This document shows positions 15,483-25,442 of a stretch of 64,000 bases of DNA, in pieces. Position numbers and translations under genes: made by a program. The first letter of the stretch is position 1. Every line of letters starts with the position of its first letter. The stretch covers positions 930,001-994,000 of the forward strand of contig NZ_CP045488.1 in assembly GCF_009392895.1 (NCBI RefSeq). The letters are read 5' to 3'. This DNA comes from Natronorubrum aibiense (lineage in GTDB: Archaea; Halobacteriota; Halobacteria; Halobacteriales; Natrialbaceae). The notes under the pieces were generated by a model. That model saw nothing but the letters and a program-made list of their open reading frames with translations, searched no databases and was not told the DNA's origin.

Positions 15483-17669
15483 TTAGATGTAGTCGATGCT
15501 TGGTGGCAGTTCGAGCTTCATGCCCTTGCGCTCGCGGATCTCCATGATCTTCTCACGCTGGAGGGAGTCGGACATGACCTCGAAGCCGGCGTTCTCGGTG
15601 TTCCAGGCGGCTCGACCTTCGGTCGCGGAGCGAATGTCGCTCGCGAAGCCGATCATCTCGTCGACGGGTGCGATACCCTCGACGACCATGAGGTCACCCT
15701 CCTGGTACATGTCGTCGACGCGGCCACGACGACCCTGGATCTCGCCGGAGGCGGCACCCATGTGGTCGTTCGGCACGTCGATACGGACGTCCTGCATCGG
15801 CTCGAGCATCTTGATCTTCCCGTCGATCAGCGCCTTGTGGACTGCCTCGCGGGTCGCGGGGATGACCTGTGCCGGACCGCGGTGGATGGTGTCCTCGTGG
15901 AGTTTGGCGTCGTGCAGTCGGATGAGCGACCCCTGCACTGGTTCGTTGGCGAGTGGACCGTTGTCGAGCGCTTCCTCGAGCCCTTCGATGACGAGTTCCA
16001 TCGTCTCGTTCAGGTGCTGGATACCCTTCGTGTCGTCGATGAGGATGTTGGTCCCGTGGATGTGCTCGACGTTCTGAGACGTGTCCTTGTCCATCCCGGC
16101 GTCCTGCAGGGCTTCGCGGCGTTCCTGCTCGGGCATGTCCATCGACGCCTCGCCGAGCTTGATCGTGTCGACGAGTTCGTCCGTCATCGGCTCGACGGAG
16201 ATGTAGAAGCGGTTGTGGCGGTTTGGCGAGATGCCTTCGACCTCGTCGCTTGGCTCCTGTGGCTGCTCGCGGTAGACGACGATCGGCTCACCGGTGTTGA
16301 CCGGGATACCCTGATTCTTCTCGATACGCTGGGTGATGACCTCGAGGTGAAGCTCACCCTGCCCGGAGATCAGGTGCTCGCCGGTGTCCTCGTTGATCGT
16401 AATCTGGATCGTCGGATCCTCTTTCGAGACCTGACGCAGCGTCTCGATGAGCTTTGGCAGGTCGTCCATCGTCTGTGCCTCGACGCTCTTGGTGATGACC
16501 GGCTCCGAGATGTGCTCGATCGACTCGAAGGGGGTCATCTCCGTGCTCGAGACGGTCGAGCCGGCGATGGCGTCTTTGAGACCGGTGACGGCAGCGATGT
16601 TCCCGGCGGGAACTTCTTCGACTTCCTCGCGCTCGCCACCCATGTAGATCCCGACGGACTGGACGCGGTTTTTGCCCGCAGTGCCCGAAACATACAGCTC
16701 CTGGCCCTTCTCGAGGGTACCCGAGAAGACACGACCGGAGGCAACTTCGCCCGCGTGGGGGTCCATCGCGATGTCTGTGACCATGAAGACGACTTCGCCG
16801 TCTTCGTCGACGAGGCGCATCCCTTCGGCGAGGTCGCTCTCGGCGTCACCGCGCCAGATGCGTGGGATACGGCGGGGCTGTGCGTCGACAGGGTTCGGGA
16901 AGTGCTCACAGACCATGTCGAGGACGACGTCCGACAGGGGCGTCCGCTCGTGGAGTTCCTGGCGCTTGTCGGCGCGCTCGAGTTCCATGATCTCGCCGAA
17001 GTCCATGCCGGTGCGCTGCATCGACGGCATCGAGACACCCCACTTGTACAGTGCGGAGCCGAAACCGACGGTACCGTCTTCGACGGAGACCGTCCAGTCT
17101 TCGATGTCGTCCATCTCCTCAGTCATGCCACGGATGAGTTCGTTGACGTCGTGGATGACCGCAAGCAGTCGCTCCTGCATCTCTTCGGGTCCTTCCTGGA
17201 GCTCCGAGATGAGGCGGTCGACTTTGTTGATGAACAGCGTCGGCTTGACGCCCTCGCGCAGTGCCTGTCGCAGAACCGTCTCAGTCTGAGGCATTGCGCC
17301 CTCGACGGCGTCGACGACGACGAGTGCGCCGTCTACAGCTCGCATCGCACGCGTGACGTCGCCACCGAAGTCGACGTGGCCCGGCGTGTCGATGAGGTTG
17401 ATGAGGTGGTTGGTGCCCTCGTACTCGTGGGTCATCGAGACGTTTGCCGCGTCGATGGTGATCCCACGTTCCTGCTCGTCTTCCTCCGTGTCCATCGCGA
17501 GCTGTTCGCCGGCTGTCTCGTCGGAGATCATGCCAGCACCAGCAAGGAGGTTGTCAGAAAGGGTCGTTTTTCCGTGGTCGACGTGAGCGGCGATGGCGAT
17601 GTTCCGGATGTGTTCCGGTTCGTCCATCAGCCGTTCACACTCTTGGACGATCTTTTTGCGTCGGCCCAT
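15483..17669 (-). CDS. fusA: Translation elongation factor 2 (aEF-2)
   Basis: The 728-residue GTPase catalyses ribosomal translocation. G1 is AHVDHGKT at about residue 28, the [10 protein letters not shown] box follows, and NKVD is G4. The domain IV tip contains the diphthamide site: H596 in DTIHRGPAQ. The protein ends at the usual short archaeal C-terminus. The ATG at 17669 starts MGRRKKI, the canonical haloarchaeal N-terminus. It normally follows rpsL-rpsG directly; here about 7 kb of other genes intervene. Confidence 0.98.
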
Positions 17670-17972
17670 ATACGCACCTTTACCGGTAGCGGGGTCAAAA
17701 GGGTAGTGTTTCGTCGCGGCTGGAATCCGTCGAATATCCCGGTTTTTACGCCGGAATTTCCAGTTTGCGTGAGTGAATGCCACGCAACAGCCTAGCCGGG
17801 ACCGACCGAGACGCCTCTCGTCTCGTTTCAGTTGTAACTAGCGTTCGATTGCCGTTGTCACCTCCGATTTCCCAGGTCTTCAGTCCTCACTCCCCCGTGC
17901 TCGTCCGCGTAATCGCGGTCAGCGAAACCGGGCGCAAGAGACATACACTCCCAGTACTTGGTAGTGATACGC
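17670..17972. other. Intergenic region between fusA and DUF5781 gene, nothing further seen
   Basis: The 303 bases hold the divergent promoters of fusA and the gene at 17973. Short ORFs here are low-complexity and not convincing. No repeat, tRNA or strong hairpin is seen. Confidence 0.5.
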
Positions 17973-18728
17973 ATGGATCTCCGAATACAGGGTTCCGGCC
18001 CCACCTCTCCGTTCCTCAGCGCTCGTGATCTCTTCGAAACCGAACACGATCTGTCGCTGCCCGTGTACGTCCAGCTCCGGGACGACCCCGACGAGCGAAC
18101 CTGGGCCGCCCATTACGACGACCGCCATGTGCTGAACATCTCGAGACAGGCCGCCTCGAGCGCGATGGCTCGCGAACTCGCCCTCCACGAGTTCTCCCAT
18201 ATGGTCAGACACGAGCAGGAACATCCCTCACACATCCAGTCGACCGAAGAAGTACTCTACCTCGCGCTGGCCGGCAAGCGCGTCGAACGGCGAAAGCTCT
18301 CACATTGTTACCAGATCGCAAATCACATGAAAGACATCTACGCCGACGACATCACGCTCGCAGTCGGCCCCGGCCAGAAACTGCTCTCCTTTCTCGAGTC
18401 GAGCCTCGCGATGGCACTCGCCGATCGCCCCGAGACACTCTCACGACCCGGCCTCGAACGCCTCTCTCCGAGTGCAGACCCGGAGATTACGGCGGTGAAC
18501 GCAGCGTTCGCGCTTGCACTTGCCGAACGTCACGACCTCATCGACGACGATCACCGCCTGTACGACCTCACACACGCGGCCGCAATGGACGCCCCTGACG
18601 TGGATTTCGACGGGTTCAAACACCGATTTCGGGAACTCGCTCGCGATCCCGACTCGAGTACGTATCGGCAAATCCTCGTCGATGCAACCCGGGCATACGT
18701 CGGTGGTGACGGGCCGGCAGCGGATTGA
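17973..18728 (+). CDS. DUF5781 family protein with HExxH-like motif
   Basis: The 251-residue protein looks like the haloarchaeal DUF5781 family. Residues around 72-76 read HEFSHMV, a zinc-metalloprotease-type HExxH motif (H-E-F-S-H), followed by a further helical region with MKDIYADD. No signal peptide or membrane helix is present, so it would be cytosolic. Proteolytic activity is inference from the motif. The gene is divergent from fusA and lies upstream of the DUF7504/CHAT cluster on the same strand. Confidence 0.75.
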   Translation: MDLRIQGSGPTSPFLSARDLFETEHDLSLPVYVQLRDDPDERTWAAHYDDRHVLNISRQAASSAMARELALHEFSHMVRHEQEHPSHIQSTEEVLYLALAGKRVERRKLSHCYQIANHMKDIYADDITLAVGPGQKLLSFLESSLAMALADRPETLSRPGLERLSPSADPEITAVNAAFALALAERHDLIDDDHRLYDLTHAAAMDAPDVDFDGFKHRFRELARDPDSSTYRQILVDATRAYVGGDGPAAD

Positions 18729-18839
18729 CCGGGATACACCGGCGTGCGGTCGAGCAACACAGACGACGGATGTGGCTCTCGGATGCGCTTCGGCCCGAAC
18801 ATTTAATGTTTGACGCATCGATGTCTGAAACATATAGTG

Positions 18840-19565
18840 ATGGATTCTCGTACTGACCTGGGAGAGGAGTCGAGCGAGGAGCGGTTCTCCGATGGACTCG
18901 CCCAACTGAAACGGCAGGGAGCCAGCGTCCTCGTCGTCGGCTCCGTTCGGGCAGCCCAGCGTCAAAGCATCTGTCGCCGGCTGTTGGGTCAGGCGACAGC
19001 ACGAGTACGGCGACGCGTTCTGGTTTCGACGACCGGCGAGAGCGACGACATCTCCGACCTGCTCGAGACGGACCCCGACACCGACACGTCGCTGACATGC
19101 GTCCGCTACGCGACACAGGCCCGCAGCGCTGCCGCGAGCAGCGCTCACACGAGTTCGATGGAGCCCGACGCACCCTCGATCGACGGGTCGCCGATGACGA
19201 CCACCACGCTCTCAGAACTCGGAATCGCCATTGCGAGCGCGATCGATTCGTTCGAAGCCGAGTCTGATGGACTCGAGCCTGCAGAACTCCGCGTCGGCGT
19301 CGACTCGCTGGTTCCCCTGCTCGAGGCATACGACACCGAACGCGTCTTCAAATTCCTCCACCTGACCAACGGCCGGGTGCGTGATTCAGACGGGATGGTT
19401 CACTACCACCTTCCGATGGATCGGGACTCGGACGTCGTCACAGTGTTGGCACCGCTGTTCGACATCATTATCGAACTCCGGGACCGAGACGGCGTTGCGC
19501 AGGAACGCTGGTCGATCGACGATGGCGACCTTCGCTCCGGCTGGGTCTCCGCCACCCAGCCGTAA
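18840..19565 (+). CDS. DUF7504 family protein (RecA/KaiC-like fold without Walker A)
   Basis: The 241-residue protein has the haloarchaeal DUF7504 pattern: an initial strand SVLVVGSV, a middle variable part, then the conserved ELRVGVDSLVPLLEAY and HYHLPMDRDSDVV. The overall order resembles RecA-superfamily ATPases, but the position of the P-loop reads GSVRAAQR, so no GKT/S is present and ATP binding is doubtful. A TATA-like TTTAATG inside a perfect AACATT-T-AATGTT repeat (18798-18810) lies just upstream of the ATG. It is 70 bases before the first CHAT gene and probably co-transcribed with it. Confidence 0.8.
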   Translation: MDSRTDLGEESSEERFSDGLAQLKRQGASVLVVGSVRAAQRQSICRRLLGQATARVRRRVLVSTTGESDDISDLLETDPDTDTSLTCVRYATQARSAAASSAHTSSMEPDAPSIDGSPMTTTTLSELGIAIASAIDSFEAESDGLEPAELRVGVDSLVPLLEAYDTERVFKFLHLTNGRVRDSDGMVHYHLPMDRDSDVVTVLAPLFDIIIELRDRDGVAQERWSIDDGDLRSGWVSATQP

Positions 19566-19635
19566 CGCCGCCCGCGTGCTCGGGGGATGACGTGTCTTCT
19601 CCCTGATGACCGCACCTTCGCCCCCTCTCTACGCA

Positions 19636-21711
19636 ATGAACCCAACTTTCGAATCGACTACCGACGGCCTAGAAATCGTCGATCCGATCGAGCGTCACCG
19701 GTATCGACTCACGACGCACGAACCGGTCTCGCTCGAGTCAGTGGTGACAGATCAGCTACAGTATCCCGTCGATGCCGCCGTCGGTCTGACGACAGCGATG
19801 ATTACGTTACCGACGAGTACGACCGTCTACGTTCGCGACCGCGACGGATCGATGGTCGCAGAAGTCCGACCCAGCGAACAAGTCTCGTTCCCGCAAGCGC
19901 AGTACATCCTCGATTTGTCCGGCCCGCTCAAGGTGTACGCTCGGCTCGAGAGTTCGGTACAGATTTACTCCGACACCGATCGGACATACGTTTCACTCGA
20001 TGACTCGACGACCGTGCATCTCGGCGCTCGCTCCTACCATCGACGACCTGCGGGCACAATTACGACGACCATCGAGCCGGCCGACATGATGCAGGCGGTT
20101 TCAGCGTTCGGCTCGGCACTGAAGACGACGACGCCCGAACGTTCGTATCCAACACTCCGTGGCCATCCGCCCACGGTCGAGTTGGGTACGGAGTTACAGC
20201 TCCCGTCGCGATTCGTCCCTCCAAAAACAGGCGTTCGGATCGAAATCCCAGAAACGATACGACACGTATTCGTCGTCGCACCGCTTGCGTACTACCTCGG
20301 TGCGACGGTCGTCCCCGGACCGACGCCGCAACTCGTTACGGAAGCCGGTTTTACCTACGCACTCGGCAACGGTGACGACTTCGAATCGACCGTCGAACAG
20401 GTTCTGAAACACGTCTTCTATCTCGATTGTATCGTCCGAACCGAGGGGACAACGCCGTTGCCCTTACACGAACGAGACGTGATCGAACCGGCCCTCCCGT
20501 TCGACCTCGAGCACGCCTACGAACGCTCACTATCCGACCGCCTTGAAACGTACCTCAGCGACGTGCCCTTTGCAACCGTCGATCGGCAGCTACCCGACTG
20601 GAGCCTCGAGACGTACCTCCAGCCGGACCCGGAATTCGTCGAGTTTCTCCCCTTTATTACCAACAACCTCTCGACCGTGCGTATTCAGGACGAACAAACA
20701 CAGTCAGCCTCGTCGACACAGGAACAGACACAGGCGATCGAAGAATTCGTTCGCGGGGATTTCGTCCGGGCTACCAGTTCGACCCGTGGTACGACGACGT
20801 CGGAGCCGACTGGGAACGCGTCGATTCCGACGATCGAACAGCGGTGGGATACAAGCGAGTCAACACCGATTACGAGCCGGACTCCGCTGTCGGCATTCCA
20901 CAATAATCTCGGTCGTCAACCGAGAGCGAATCCGATCGAAATCGAGGTCGTCTGTAACGATTCGGAGATGCGAGATGAACTCGAGGCGGTCGACGGCGTG
21001 TATGGAACTCGCGAAGAACTTCCGTTCGACGTATCCGTCCATTACGAACTGTCGACGGACGAACTCGAGGCCGTTCTGGCATCCGAAACCGACTTTCTGC
21101 ACTTTATCGGCCACATCGATACCGACGGAATGCGGTGTTGCGATGGAATCGTCGACGCATCGTCACTCGAAACGTCGGGCGCGAAGGCGTTTCTATTAAA
21201 CGGCTGTCAATCACACGATCAGGGACTCCACCTCGTCGACGCTGGCAGCGTTGGCGGAATCGTCACGCTCGACGACGTTGTGAACAGCGGTGCAGTGAGC
21301 GTCGGGAGTACGATTGCGCGGTTGTTGAACCGAGGGTATCCGCTGTACGCTGCAGTGGAAATCGCTCGCAAGAAAAACGTAGTCGGTCAACAGTATCGAA
21401 TTGTTGGAGATGGTATAACAACGATCGCACAATCAAGTATGGGATCGCCAAATATCTGCTCAATAACCAACAGCAATGACGATATCGTGGTGAATATGTA
21501 TGCGTATATGTCTGTTGGATTAGAAACCGGGGGAGTGTATATCCCACAAATAGATGATGTTGGGTCATATTTTCTTATTCCAGGAAGAACCGGTCCGATT
21601 TCGGTAACACGAGATCAATTGCGGAAGCTATTCAGTTTAGATAAAATTCCTGTCCTTATCAACAATGAGGTCAAATGGAGCGATACTATCGACGTAACAC
21701 AGGTCGTATGA
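19636..21711 (+). CDS. CHAT-domain (caspase-like) putative protease, paralogue 1
   Basis: The 691-residue protein is of a haloarchaeal type with no assigned role. Residues about 1-150 are beta-rich, then a conserved block (DMMQAVSAFGSALKTT, RSYPTLRGHPP) and a helical middle. The region about 430-600 reads as a CHAT domain: FLHFIGHID with H493, LLNGCQSHDQG with C524, then DAGSVGGIVTLDDV and STIARLLNRGYPLYAAVEIAR. H493 and C524 would form the caspase-type His-Cys dyad. The last 90 residues are encoded by AT-richer DNA and differ from paralogue 2. The ATG at 19636 aligns with the start of paralogue 2. Protease activity is inferred from motifs only. Confidence 0.75.
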   Translation: MNPTFESTTDGLEIVDPIERHRYRLTTHEPVSLESVVTDQLQYPVDAAVGLTTAMITLPTSTTVYVRDRDGSMVAEVRPSEQVSFPQAQYILDLSGPLKVYARLESSVQIYSDTDRTYVSLDDSTTVHLGARSYHRRPAGTITTTIEPADMMQAVSAFGSALKTTTPERSYPTLRGHPPTVELGTELQLPSRFVPPKTGVRIEIPETIRHVFVVAPLAYYLGATVVPGPTPQLVTEAGFTYALGNGDDFESTVEQVLKHVFYLDCIVRTEGTTPLPLHERDVIEPALPFDLEHAYERSLSDRLETYLSDVPFATVDRQLPDWSLETYLQPDPEFVEFLPFITNNLSTVRIQDEQTQSASSTQEQTQAIEEFVRGDFVRATSSTRGTTTSEPTGNASIPTIEQRWDTSESTPITSRTPLSAFHNNLGRQPRANPIEIEVVCNDSEMRDELEAVDGVYGTREELPFDVSVHYELSTDELEAVLASETDFLHFIGHIDTDGMRCCDGIVDASSLETSGAKAFLLNGCQSHDQGLHLVDAGSVGGIVTLDDVVNSGAVSVGSTIARLLNRGYPLYAAVEIARKKNVVGQQYRIVGDGITTIAQSSMGSPNICSITNSNDDIVVNMYAYMSVGLETGGVYIPQIDDVGSYFLIPGRTGPISVTRDQLRKLFSLDKIPVLINNEVKWSDTIDVTQVV

Positions 21712-21712
21712 A

Positions 21713-21838
21713 TTACGGGCCGGCGAAGGCGCTATTGGTTGCTGCAACCGTGCTCGCCTGCGACAGTACCAGCAGAATCGTAAACAGTGCGCCGATCATT
21801 CGTGGGTGGTTCTTCAGGTGTTGGGTTAGGTCGTCCAT
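21713..21838 (-). CDS. DUF7503 family microprotein (41 aa)
   Basis: The 41-residue product reads MDDLTQHLKNHPRMIGALF and continues through a hydrophobic segment LLVLSQAS to a short Ala-rich end. This matches the haloarchaeal DUF7503 pattern: a short basic N-terminus with the near-invariant HPRMIG, then one membrane-associated helix. The gene is convergent with CHAT paralogue 1, whose stop lies one base away. DUF7503 and DUF7504 genes are often found near each other in haloarchaea (recollection, not checked). Function unknown. Confidence 0.75.
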   Translation of the reverse strand: MDDLTQHLKNHPRMIGALFTILLVLSQASTVAATNSAFAGP

Positions 21839-22002
21839 GGTCCATCTAATACGTACCACCGCATTAATATAAATTTATTTTAATATAACATATAAATAGA
21901 TAGTAGTGATATTCCTCGAATAAATTGTTTAAAAGTACAGTGCTGGCGCTGCCCCAAACAGATAACGGCTGATATCAGAGTACCCGTGCGAATCTGGCTG
22001 GT

Positions 22003-22572
22003 TTACTCGTCGAGTAACTGCCGCAGTGACTGATCGAATTCGTCACTCGAGAGCGCATCGCGAATCGCGGCTGCTCGCTTACGGGACTCATAGAGATTAC
22101 AGACGACGGATTGATAGCGATCAGCAGCGTCGATGCCGGACTGGAGTTCGTTTTCGAGCAGTGCACGCTCGGTCGAGAGTCTGAAAAATTCGTCCATCGC
22201 CTCCTCGTAGGCTCGTTGCAGGAGAAGACGTTCGATAGTCGAGTACAATGTCTCGTCCGAGTACGGTTCGACGAGGAGTTCATCAGCCCCACGGTCGACT
22301 GGATCGTCGGCAGGAACGTCCTCAGCGAGAACGAGAATTTGTGCCTCCGGTGCGCTCTGTCGGAACGCGTCGAGGACGCCACGAGCATCCGGTGTCTCGA
22401 GTTCCCAATCGAGAAGGAGGAGGTCGTATTCGTGGTCGAGCTGTTCCAGAATGGACCGGTCAAAATCGGCCCTGTGAACGCCGACAGTGACTCGGCACCG
22501 ATCGACATCCATCGAAGGGAAAGAGAGCGTCGGGTGGACGACGAATAGCTGGGACGGAGAGTTCAACAACAC
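22003..22572 (-). CDS. HalX-domain response-regulator-like protein with degenerate receiver
   Basis: The 189-residue protein is the usual length of HalX regulators. The first 120 residues look like a receiver: LFVVHPT as strand 1, DLLLLDWE with the phosphorylatable-type Asp, and ELLVEPYSD where the conserved Lys should be. The acidic pair of strand 1 is missing and the Lys is replaced, so normal phosphorylation is doubtful. The C-terminal HalX helices follow (DEFFRLSTERALLENEL, then SRKRAAAIRDAL). GTG at 22572 is preferred to ATG at 22512 because it restores strand 1 and fits the TATA-like box at 22601-22610. Confidence 0.75.
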   Translation of the reverse strand: MLLNSPSQLFVVHPTLSFPSMDVDRCRVTVGVHRADFDRSILEQLDHEYDLLLLDWELETPDARGVLDAFRQSAPEAQILVLAEDVPADDPVDRGADELLVEPYSDETLYSTIERLLLQRAYEEAMDEFFRLSTERALLENELQSGIDAADRYQSVVCNLYESRKRAAAIRDALSSDEFDQSLRQLLDE

Positions 22573-22600
22573 GCTCGTACTACTACACCTCTGGTAGATA

Positions 22601-22610
22601 CTATTAAATG
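22601..22610 (-). promoter_or_regulatory. TATA-like box of the HalX gene
   Basis: On the minus strand this reads CATTTAATAG, placed to give transcription start a few bases before the GTG at 22572. Confidence 0.4.
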
Positions 22611-22688
22611 TGGTCAGGAACGAACAGAAAGCTACAACAATTACACATGTTAGGAAAGATATCAAACGATACGCAATTCGGCCATAAC

Positions 22689-22698
22689 GTATATTTTT
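22689..22698 (+). promoter_or_regulatory. TATA-like box of CHAT paralogue 2
   Basis: GTATATTTTT lies about 75 bases upstream of the ATG at 22769, so the mRNA would have a leader of about 45 bases. It is divergent from the HalX promoter, so the two genes share one control region. Confidence 0.4.
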
Positions 22699-22768
22699 AC
22701 CGACTTGCATATCTTGTATAAGAAACGAGACTGGCAACGACCAGCCCATCACTTCCCGTTCGGCGCTG

Positions 22769-24772
22769 ATGAACCCGAAATTCAAATCAACTCAAGACGG
22801 TGTAGTAATTATCGATCCGATCGAGCGCAAGCAGTATCGGATCGAGACGAACACGCCAGTGGCGCCGACACCTGTCGCCACCGATCGGATACCGTATCCG
22901 ATAGATACGACTGTCGAAATCACGACCGACGGCTTTAGAGTACTGAGTGATAATTCGATTTACGTTCGTGATTCAACCGGCTCGTTGCTTACTGAGGTCC
23001 AAGCAAACGAACGATCGGACCTCCCGCATGCGGAATACGTTCTCGATATCTCCGGTCCACTAAAAGTCTACGTAACCGTCGAAAGCGCGGTTCACGTGGA
23101 TGCAGGCGTTGGCCGAGCAGAGATTGCGTTCGCCGAACCGACATCGGCGATATTCGGCGCACGGTCGTATCACACGTCGCCGAGGGGGACGATCACGACG
23201 ACCACCGAACCGACCGACATGATGCAAGCGGTTTCGATGTTCGGGTCGGCACTGAAGACGACATCGCCTGAACGATCGTACCCGACGCTTCGTGGCCATC
23301 CACCGGCGATCGAGTTGGCCGATGAACTCGACGTACCCAAGACGCTGTGTCGACCGGAGACAGGCATCCGAATTGAAATCCCGCCGACGCTCGAACAGAT
23401 CCTCGTCGTCGCACCGCTTGCGTACTATCTCGCCGCAGCGGTCGTCCCCGGATCGACGCCACAGCTCGCTACGGAAACGGGATACACGTATTCACTCGAG
23501 GATGAAGCGAGATTCGAACGGACGGTCGATCAGACGCTCAAACAGCTCTTTCTACTCGATTGTATCGTTCGGACCGAAGGGGAGACACCACTTCCGTTGT
23601 ACGAACGGCAGGCGATCGAACCGGCGCTCGATTTCGACATCGCGCACCTGTACGACCGGCCAATAGCCGAGCAACTCGAAACCTATCTCGAGGTCCCGTT
23701 CGAAACAGTTCAATCGCAACTTCCCGACTGGCAGTTCGAGACTCGACTCGAGGCGCGTCCGGATTCTCTCGAGATTCTGCCGTTCCTTACGAACTACCTC
23801 CCGACGATCACCGTCGCAACCGATGCACGTCCCTTGGCTCGAACGCCGCAAGCGGGAATTCGAACGACCGACACCGATCCCGAGTCAGCCCTCCCGCTCA
23901 CGCAGCAAGTCTGGGGCGACGAGGAAATCGAGATAACGGGAACCGGAACGCTGCCAGCGTTCTGGAACGGTATCACACAGTCACCGCGAGACGGCCCGCT
24001 CGAGATCGACGTCATCTGTAACGATCCGGACATGGGAACGGAGTTTGCGACAGTCCATAGCGCATACCGTGATCGAAACGATCTCCCACTCGAAGTTACC
24101 GTCCACTTCGATCTTACGACCGCCGAACTCGAGGACGTCTTCGCTCGAGAGAGCGACTTCGTTCACTATATCGGTCATATCGATGCCGACGGATTTCGGT
24201 GTTCAGATGGGACGTTAGACGCAGCGGACATCGAAACGGTCGGCACGAAAGCGTTCGTTCTCAACGCGTGTCGCTCCTACGAACAAGGGCTTCACCTCCT
24301 CGAAGCGGGGGCAATCGGAGGAATCGTCACGTTCGACGAAATCGAAAACGCGACCGCTGTCACCGCCGGAAGCACGATCGCTCGCCTGTTGAACGTTGGA
24401 TTACCGCTTTATGCCACATTACACATCCTACAAAAACTCGGTTACGTTAATCAACAGTACCATATCGTGGGTGATGGGACAGTATCGGTGGTTCAGACTA
24501 ATCAAGGGCTACCAACAGCCGGTCTAATACCTCGAGATAGAAGTGAAGCGGCTATTCGTTTGATTATCTATCCGACCTCTTACCAGAAGATGGGTGGTGT
24601 CTATAACCTGGCTACGAAATCAGCTGACTTATATCGATTAGCGTTTGGAACGTTAAATCTGCAATTAGAGTCAACGGCGGAACTCGTGGAATATCTCAAC
24701 GCAGAATCGTTTCCTGTGTTACTGAATGGTGAACTTCGCTGGAGTACTGACGTCAAGACGTACGAACTGTAA
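22769..24772 (+). CDS. CHAT-domain (caspase-like) putative protease, paralogue 2
   Basis: The 667-residue protein is collinear with paralogue 1 (19636-21711) over about the first 580 residues: both start MNPxF, share IDPIER, GTITTT, DMMQAVS.FGSALKTT and RSYPTLRGHPP. The CHAT region retains the dyad: H470 in FVHYIGHIDADG and C501 in VLNACRSYEQG, again 31 residues apart, then EAGAIGGIVTFDEI and STIARLLNVGLPLYA. The last 90 residues are AT-rich and unlike paralogue 1 except for GGVY and a final FPVLLNGELRWS. Its 3' end faces rpsG. Probable cysteine protease, substrate unknown. Confidence 0.75.
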   Translation: MNPKFKSTQDGVVIIDPIERKQYRIETNTPVAPTPVATDRIPYPIDTTVEITTDGFRVLSDNSIYVRDSTGSLLTEVQANERSDLPHAEYVLDISGPLKVYVTVESAVHVDAGVGRAEIAFAEPTSAIFGARSYHTSPRGTITTTTEPTDMMQAVSMFGSALKTTSPERSYPTLRGHPPAIELADELDVPKTLCRPETGIRIEIPPTLEQILVVAPLAYYLAAAVVPGSTPQLATETGYTYSLEDEARFERTVDQTLKQLFLLDCIVRTEGETPLPLYERQAIEPALDFDIAHLYDRPIAEQLETYLEVPFETVQSQLPDWQFETRLEARPDSLEILPFLTNYLPTITVATDARPLARTPQAGIRTTDTDPESALPLTQQVWGDEEIEITGTGTLPAFWNGITQSPRDGPLEIDVICNDPDMGTEFATVHSAYRDRNDLPLEVTVHFDLTTAELEDVFARESDFVHYIGHIDADGFRCSDGTLDAADIETVGTKAFVLNACRSYEQGLHLLEAGAIGGIVTFDEIENATAVTAGSTIARLLNVGLPLYATLHILQKLGYVNQQYHIVGDGTVSVVQTNQGLPTAGLIPRDRSEAAIRLIIYPTSYQKMGGVYNLATKSADLYRLAFGTLNLQLESTAELVEYLNAESFPVLLNGELRWSTDVKTYEL

Positions 24773-24833
24773 CCTGCACTCGAGTCAGAGTACCGCCGCT
24801 CTCGAGCCGCGAAACCGAAAGAAAACGTGGTGC

Positions 24834-25442
24834 TTAGCGTGCAGCTGCCGCGACGCGCTCTTTCTCTTCTTTCTGACTGACCGCGTAGGTCTGGACGTCG
24901 TAGTTGGCCGCGCCGGTAAGCTGGCTGGCGATGGCCTCTGCGACGGGCGTCGAGGTCTTGAACGAGTCGTTGTAGACACCTTCGGCGAGGAACTTCAGGG
25001 CCTGGTCGACACGACGCTGGGGTGCGACGTCGACGGCCTTGGGGACCGAGATGCCACCGTATTTGAGGCGGACGGTCTCCTCACGTGGGGCTGCGTTCTC
25101 GACGGCGGTGACGAGCACCTGAATCGGGTTCTCGTCGGTGCGCTCGTGGATGAGTTCGAACGCATCACGCACGTGGTTGAGCGTCTGCTGTTTCTTGCCC
25201 GTGTTCTCTTCGGTCTGCATCAAGCGGTTGATGAAGCGCTCGACGATCGAGATCTGGGACTTCTTGAACTGCTTGCTGGCGTGGCGACCGGCGGTGTGGG
25301 CGACCGGCGTCACCGTAATGTAGCGTTCGGTGGATGGATCGTTGTACGCGATCTCGTCGATCTCCCACGTGCCGAACAGTTTCGCACCGACGTCTGCGCC
25401 ACCTGCGGGGGCGTCTGGATCCGGTTGGTCTTCTGCAGCCAT
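24834..25442 (-). CDS. rpsG: 30S ribosomal protein S7
   Basis: The 202-residue protein is uS7, which nucleates assembly of the 30S head. Archaeal signature regions are visible: ERYITVTPVAHTAGRHASKQ, VERFINRLMQTEEN, and the C-terminal PQRRVDQALKFLAEGV. An acidic, Pro/Asp-rich N-terminal extension of about 20 residues is typical of haloarchaea. It starts two bases after the rpsL stop and is the last gene of the RNA polymerase/ribosomal operon in this arrangement. Confidence 0.97.
   Translation of the reverse strand: MAAEDQPDPDAPAGGADVGAKLFGTWEIDEIAYNDPSTERYITVTPVAHTAGRHASKQFKKSQISIVERFINRLMQTEENTGKKQQTLNHVRDAFELIHERTDENPIQVLVTAVENAAPREETVRLKYGGISVPKAVDVAPQRRVDQALKFLAEGVYNDSFKTSTPVAEAIASQLTGAANYDVQTYAVSQKEEKERVAAAAR

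Follow-up and report, generated by a model that had tools for sequence, protein, structure and literature searches.

A core haloarchaeal family of putative caspase-fold proteases and its convergent membrane microprotein at the rpsG-fusA junction of Natronorubrum aibiense

Genes at the rpsG-fusA junction

In a 64,000-nucleotide stretch of Natronorubrum aibiense contig NZ_CP045488.1 (hereafter the window), the junction between rpsG and the gene of elongation factor 2 (EF-2, fusA) is occupied by two paralogous genes, CHAT-A and CHAT-B, that encode putative cysteine proteases with a caspase-like (CHAT-like) fold. The first is paired with the gene of a 41-residue microprotein of the family DUF7503. 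All genes were found where an earlier note, made from the sequence alone, had placed them:

15483-17672, minus strand: EF-2 (fusA)
17973-18728, plus strand: DUF5781 protein, zincin-like, HEFSH motif present (Pfam E 2.1e-131)
about 18840-19565, plus strand: DUF7504 protein, KaiC/RecA-like, without the Walker A lysine in this copy (Pfam E 1.8e-60)
19636-21711, plus strand: CHAT-A, putative cysteine protease with a caspase (CHAT-like) fold, 691 residues, H493/C524, the copy paired with DUF7503
21713-21838, minus strand: DUF7503, predicted single-pass membrane microprotein of 41 residues, convergent with CHAT-A (Pfam E 2.3e-19)
about 22003-22587, minus strand: HalX-domain protein resembling response regulators, with a degenerate receiver, divergent from CHAT-B (Pfam HalX E 1.2e-4)
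22769-24772, plus strand: CHAT-B, putative cysteine protease with a caspase (CHAT-like) fold, 667 residues, H470/C501, a tandem duplicate without DUF7503
24834-25442, minus strand: rpsG, followed by rpsL

CHAT-A and CHAT-B share 48% identity. The length of 667 residues given earlier for CHAT-B holds, and that of 690 for CHAT-A becomes 691 with its ATG start.

Fold and distribution of the protease family

Structure prediction, run as a check on the caspase fold that the earlier note had proposed around the dyad, supported this fold: the C-terminal domain of CHAT-B is predicted to have the caspase/separase/CHAT fold. The fold evidence comes from the AlphaFold2 model of CHAT-B only, computed from an alignment of 58 relatives (predicted local distance difference test, pLDDT, 89.2; predicted template modelling score, pTM, 0.90). 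Foldseek retrieved SAVED-CHAT (8tl0) as the best match (E 2.4e-6), followed by DdvA, separase, TPR-CHAT and gingipains. A second structural aligner (VIA) gave Z scores of 15.9 for DdvA, 15.4 for separase, 14.6 for SAVED-CHAT and 14.4 for Craspase, with root-mean-square deviations (rmsd) of 2.5-3.1 over about 165-185 residues for the best matches, while caspases scored Z 9-10. In the model, H470 follows the strand 462-468 and C501 the strand 493-499, consecutive core strands that would place both residues at caspase positions. The dyads noted earlier are present in both paralogues, and the His-Cys pair is invariant in all 95 relatives that cover the site; its surroundings, IGH and LNxC, are nearly invariant among sequences only 32-69% identical to CHAT-B.

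Profile searches largely miss the family. The Pfam CHAT profile (PF12770) matches 10 of the 58 relatives at E<0.1 (best 7.2e-5) and neither window copy, the best score in the genome being 9.9 bits against a 24-bit cut-off, and it found nothing above the cut-off in the Haloferax volcanii control either. Peptidase_C14 (PF00656) had no match at E 1 in the window's genome and none in the same control, and scans of CHAT-A and CHAT-B with Pfam, NCBIfam and PADLOC yielded no usable match. That the Pfam CHAT and Peptidase_C14 profiles pass over these proteins would explain why surveys have overlooked them. Because a PDB sequence search with the profile of the family also returned no match, the CHAT assignment draws on structure together with the weak Pfam CHAT matches in relatives, and we call the proteins CHAT-like rather than members of PF12770, since they have the fold and the dyad and the Pfam profile recognizes the family only in part.

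The protein is built of an N-terminal beta-sandwich, a middle domain with an RGHPP motif and the C-terminal CHAT-like domain with the dyad. The N-terminal 345 residues are well folded in the model (pLDDT 93), and structural comparison of this part returned only common beta-sandwich matches (YidC periplasmic domain and glycosidases, Z at most 7.5). The RGHPP motif is invariant in the family-specific middle region (residues 140-320), for which no convincing structural match was found, a result that does not establish a new fold.

We found the family in 223 of the 242 sampled haloarchaeal genomes (92%), in one to six copies each; it is therefore core to haloarchaea and not an accessory defence island. 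Beyond Halobacteria, it was detected in four genomes of one family among 110 genomes of the phylum, and the three such loci inspected (L148, L149 and L150) contain no DUF7503. The relative at L148:5043-7106 has its dyad replaced (IGR...CTD) and is an apparent pseudoprotease, judged from its sequence; those in L149 and L150 keep the dyad. The family is also carried by 25 haloarchaeal plasmids, where most members are annotated as hypothetical, one as CHAT and one as caspase family, and no relatives were found on viral contigs.

Convergent pairing with DUF7503 and the other neighbours

In the loci tested, DUF7503 (PF24335; 69.1 bits for the window copy against a cut-off of 27) pairs obligately with the protease gene in convergent orientation. 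When loci were fetched by DUF7503 alone, a protease gene lay tail-to-tail with it in 29 of 29, across many genera. Seen from the protease, DUF7503 is convergent at 72 of 95 CHAT genes, with stop-to-stop gaps of -17 to 101 bp (13 bp or less in 62 of the 72); 1 bp lies between the stop codons of CHAT-A and DUF7503 in the window. DUF7503 is present in 204 of the 242 haloarchaeal genomes and in none of the 19 that lack the protease (Fisher p 4.5e-18, with no correction for phylogeny). No mention of an obligate pairing between DUF7503 and a caspase-fold gene turned up in the literature searched; the tail-to-tail arrangement gives this anonymous family a partner and a testable role.

DUF7503 consists of one hydrophobic helix with residue-specific conservation (P12, R/K13 and F19 in 72 of 72 sequences, Q27 in 69 and G29 in 68). 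The most conserved feature ahead of the helix is N/H-P-R/K, and nearly all copies with a tail end in GP. The 100 bases upstream of the gene are AT-rich with a drop at about -25 and look promoter-like, in keeping with a dedicated haloarchaeal promoter lying close to the start codon. One locus (L116:1279-1626, genome G012) has two tandem DUF7503 genes behind a single protease gene.

In the tree of the family, the junction copies all group together in a single clade (29 rows, support 100). The CHAT-B copies (13 rows, DUF7503 in none) are a subclade within it, and CHAT-A groups with DUF7503-linked copies. CHAT-B has the higher rate of evolution (1.15 against 0.70 changes per site) and is a Natrialbaceae-specific tandem duplicate without DUF7503. 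The protease pair of the earlier note is thus a pair of paralogues, as it said, whose pairing is a lineage-specific tandem duplication. A third, more distant paralogue in the same genome (C1:2864257-2866233, also given as C1:2864155-2866257; L005:6156-8258) adjoins SHMT, FolD and a RuBisCO large-chain gene, with neither DUF7503 nor DUF7504 in view at that locus.

Neighbourhood comparison also linked the protease to DUF7504, which is found in 61 of 80 CHAT loci, usually directly upstream of the protease gene. The window copy scores 204.9 bits against a cut-off of 27 and belongs to a multicopy family present in 39 of 39 genomes (1-15 copies per genome). Its description as RecA-like without a P-loop agrees with our results: against PDB, the family profile matches KaiC only, and weakly (E 0.035), and the Walker A loop GxxxxGK[ST] is absent from the CHAT-linked copies. 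Relative to KaiC-like ATPases, the CHAT-linked branch is without the loop lysine, whereas a P-loop-like GPPxxGKR is kept only elsewhere in the family. DUF7504 is not mentioned in the literature searched.

In this comparison, which contradicts the earlier note only in part, the linkage of HalX is narrow, the gene lying behind DUF7503 chiefly in Natrialbaceae and Haloferacaceae. The window protein, one of only three HalX genes in its genome, has a HalX domain near the cut-off (22.8 bits against 23.2; 24.0 in the genome search). As a regulator it is atypical: alignment with an intact Haloferax version shows that its receiver has lost the acidic pair and the conserved Lys, whereas the copies that occupy this position in Haloferax are intact, normal response regulators. 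In Haloferax elongans (L034:12353-14165), the HalX gene ahead of DUF7503 has a TrmB-type regulator gene immediately upstream and in the same orientation, which suggests that the two form an operon.

The rpsG-fusA junction is indeed split, by less than was first described. Most genomes that lack the protease or carry it elsewhere have fusA-DUF5781-rpsG with nothing else between; DUF5781 is part of the ancestral junction, so the insertion spans about 6 kb (18729-24833) and excludes it. In some Natrialbaceae, to which this site is restricted, the unit was inserted between DUF5781 and rpsG, and other genomes usually carry the family at unrelated sites. DUF5781, counted earlier as a component of the module, was accordingly ruled out. 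This protein (17973-18728) has a weak Peptidase_M78 (IrrE-like) match (E 0.001) around HEFSH, and its place next to fusA is conserved in haloarchaea; it is possibly a translation-linked zincin.

Proposed function and alternatives

The near-universality of the family, the repeated geometry of its genes and the lack of defence signals lead us to propose, with about even confidence, a core haloarchaeal unit, made up of a regulated cysteine protease of caspase fold and its dedicated membrane microprotein, of which the window holds a Natrialbaceae-specific duplicated copy. From these data we infer proteolytic activity, the membrane topology of DUF7503, its physical interaction with CHAT and regulation. 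The most likely mechanism would be limited and regulated cleavage of proteins at the membrane or close to it, by a soluble protease that its N-terminal domains would keep inactive and that would have DUF7503 as its dedicated membrane partner, whether anchor, inhibitor or substrate. A preference for basic P1 residues is found in several clan CD enzymes, and N/H-P-R/K ahead of the DUF7503 helix is for this reason a possible cut site. The tail-to-tail genes may set the CHAT and DUF7503 transcripts against each other, and DUF7504, with HalX in two families, may adjust activity or expression.

Several observations weigh against this proposal. The protease and DUF7503 genes face each other and so are not one operon, and DUF7503 could be a signal-peptide-like precursor without any physical tie to the protease. 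Since neither CHAT-B nor the third paralogue comes with its own DUF7503 gene, the microprotein may not be needed by every copy. The linkage of HalX is confined to two families, and that of DUF7504 is one-way, since this family is mostly encoded elsewhere (4 of 29 loci fetched by DUF7504 adjoin CHAT). Proteolysis by CHAT and its interaction with DUF7503 remain putative.

The earlier note had also considered a defence module. Roles in bacterial immunity are known for CHAT proteases (Craspase, PMC10028731; SAVED-CHAT, 8tl0), and a protease activated by infection might kill the cell, for instance by cleaving or freeing DUF7503 to permeabilize the membrane in a gasdermin-like logic; a membrane microprotein would be an attractive effector, and several copies per genome as well as the plasmid copies fit such a role. 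We nevertheless consider a defence or programmed-death module unlikely, given a family that is present in nearly all sampled haloarchaea and mostly at other sites, the absence of PADLOC matches at E 1 for the five larger window proteins and of copies on viral contigs, and the fact that neither a defence gene nor any gene besides those described above is a recurrent neighbour of the unit in many lineages. It is also improbable, and slightly more so, that the protein keeps the fold but works in signalling or as a scaffold, its His and Cys having some other role. Catalytic activity is a prediction, the distant L148 relative is without the dyad, and DdvA, the top Z match, is titled an anti-sigma factor in PDB; yet the retention of both residues in every member that covers the site, at such divergence and in such constant surroundings, weighs against this reading.

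DUF7503 itself might be the precursor of a short exported peptide, with the protease, HalX and DUF7504 belonging to the response to it. Its signal-peptide-like helix ends in V/A-A-A (an AxA-like site) and is followed by a short uncharged tail of 6-8 variable residues, constant only in the terminal Gly-Pro. The residue-by-residue conservation of F19, Q27 and G29 within the helix is unusual for signal peptides, however, and genes for a receptor or an exporter are not among the conserved neighbours of DUF7503, which leaves this explanation a little less probable still. Flanking genes that differ between lineages, and a junction site limited to some Natrialbaceae, would suit an ordinary accessory insertion whose genes travel together by chance without forming a functional unit, but the identical geometry at every DUF7503-fetched locus, in many genera, already disfavours it and makes it very improbable.

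Returning to the proposed regulated protease, CHAT proteases (PF12770; HetF, Csx29/TPR-CHAT and SAVED-CHAT) resemble the window proteins in their caspase-like domain, in a His-Cys dyad after consecutive strands and in the regulatory domains alongside, and Craspase and SAVED-CHAT chains match CHAT-B at Z 10-15. Unlike them, the window proteins have unrelated N-terminal domains and no TPR, SAVED or CRISPR partner was seen; the haloarchaeal family is near-universal in one archaeal class and has a dedicated convergent microprotein, and the window copies fall below the Pfam CHAT cut-off. Separase (clan CD, C50) matches CHAT-B as well as CHAT proteases do (184 residues, rmsd 3.0), but the haloarchaeal protein has a different N-terminal architecture and no cohesin-related context was seen. 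Metacaspases and orthocaspases (Peptidase_C14) share the clan CD fold and dyad, although their profile does not match in the window's genome; a 2012 survey of 114 archaeal genomes reported metacaspases in 5 of them (PMC3501461). HetF, a CHAT protein of Anabaena, is required for heterocyst development and belongs to the divisome (PMC8406250), and in Craspase the CHAT protein cuts one dedicated partner once (PMC10028731); the logic of both cases may be comparable to that of the proposed protease-microprotein unit.

Archaea have been said to lack caspase homologues, while extracts of H. volcanii show strong caspase-like activity for which no gene had been assigned (PMC3615174). This family might be the gene behind that activity, acting in salt stress or regulated death via its membrane microprotein and missed by standard profiles, a link that we regard as doubtful. 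Similar activity has been reported in archaea outside the known range of the family, and the substrates of the activity end in Asp, whereas the family shows no sign of an Asp preference. We found no paper in the literature searched that mentions a CHAT domain together with an HVO gene. In favour of the link, the activity awaits a gene, the protease family is present in many Haloferax species, and its DUF7503 partner occurs in H. volcanii, where the control matches were to DUF7503, DUF7504, HalX and DUF5781 only. With a near-universal haloarchaeal caspase-fold family whose dyad is invariant, the question of the H. volcanii activity becomes directly testable by genetics.

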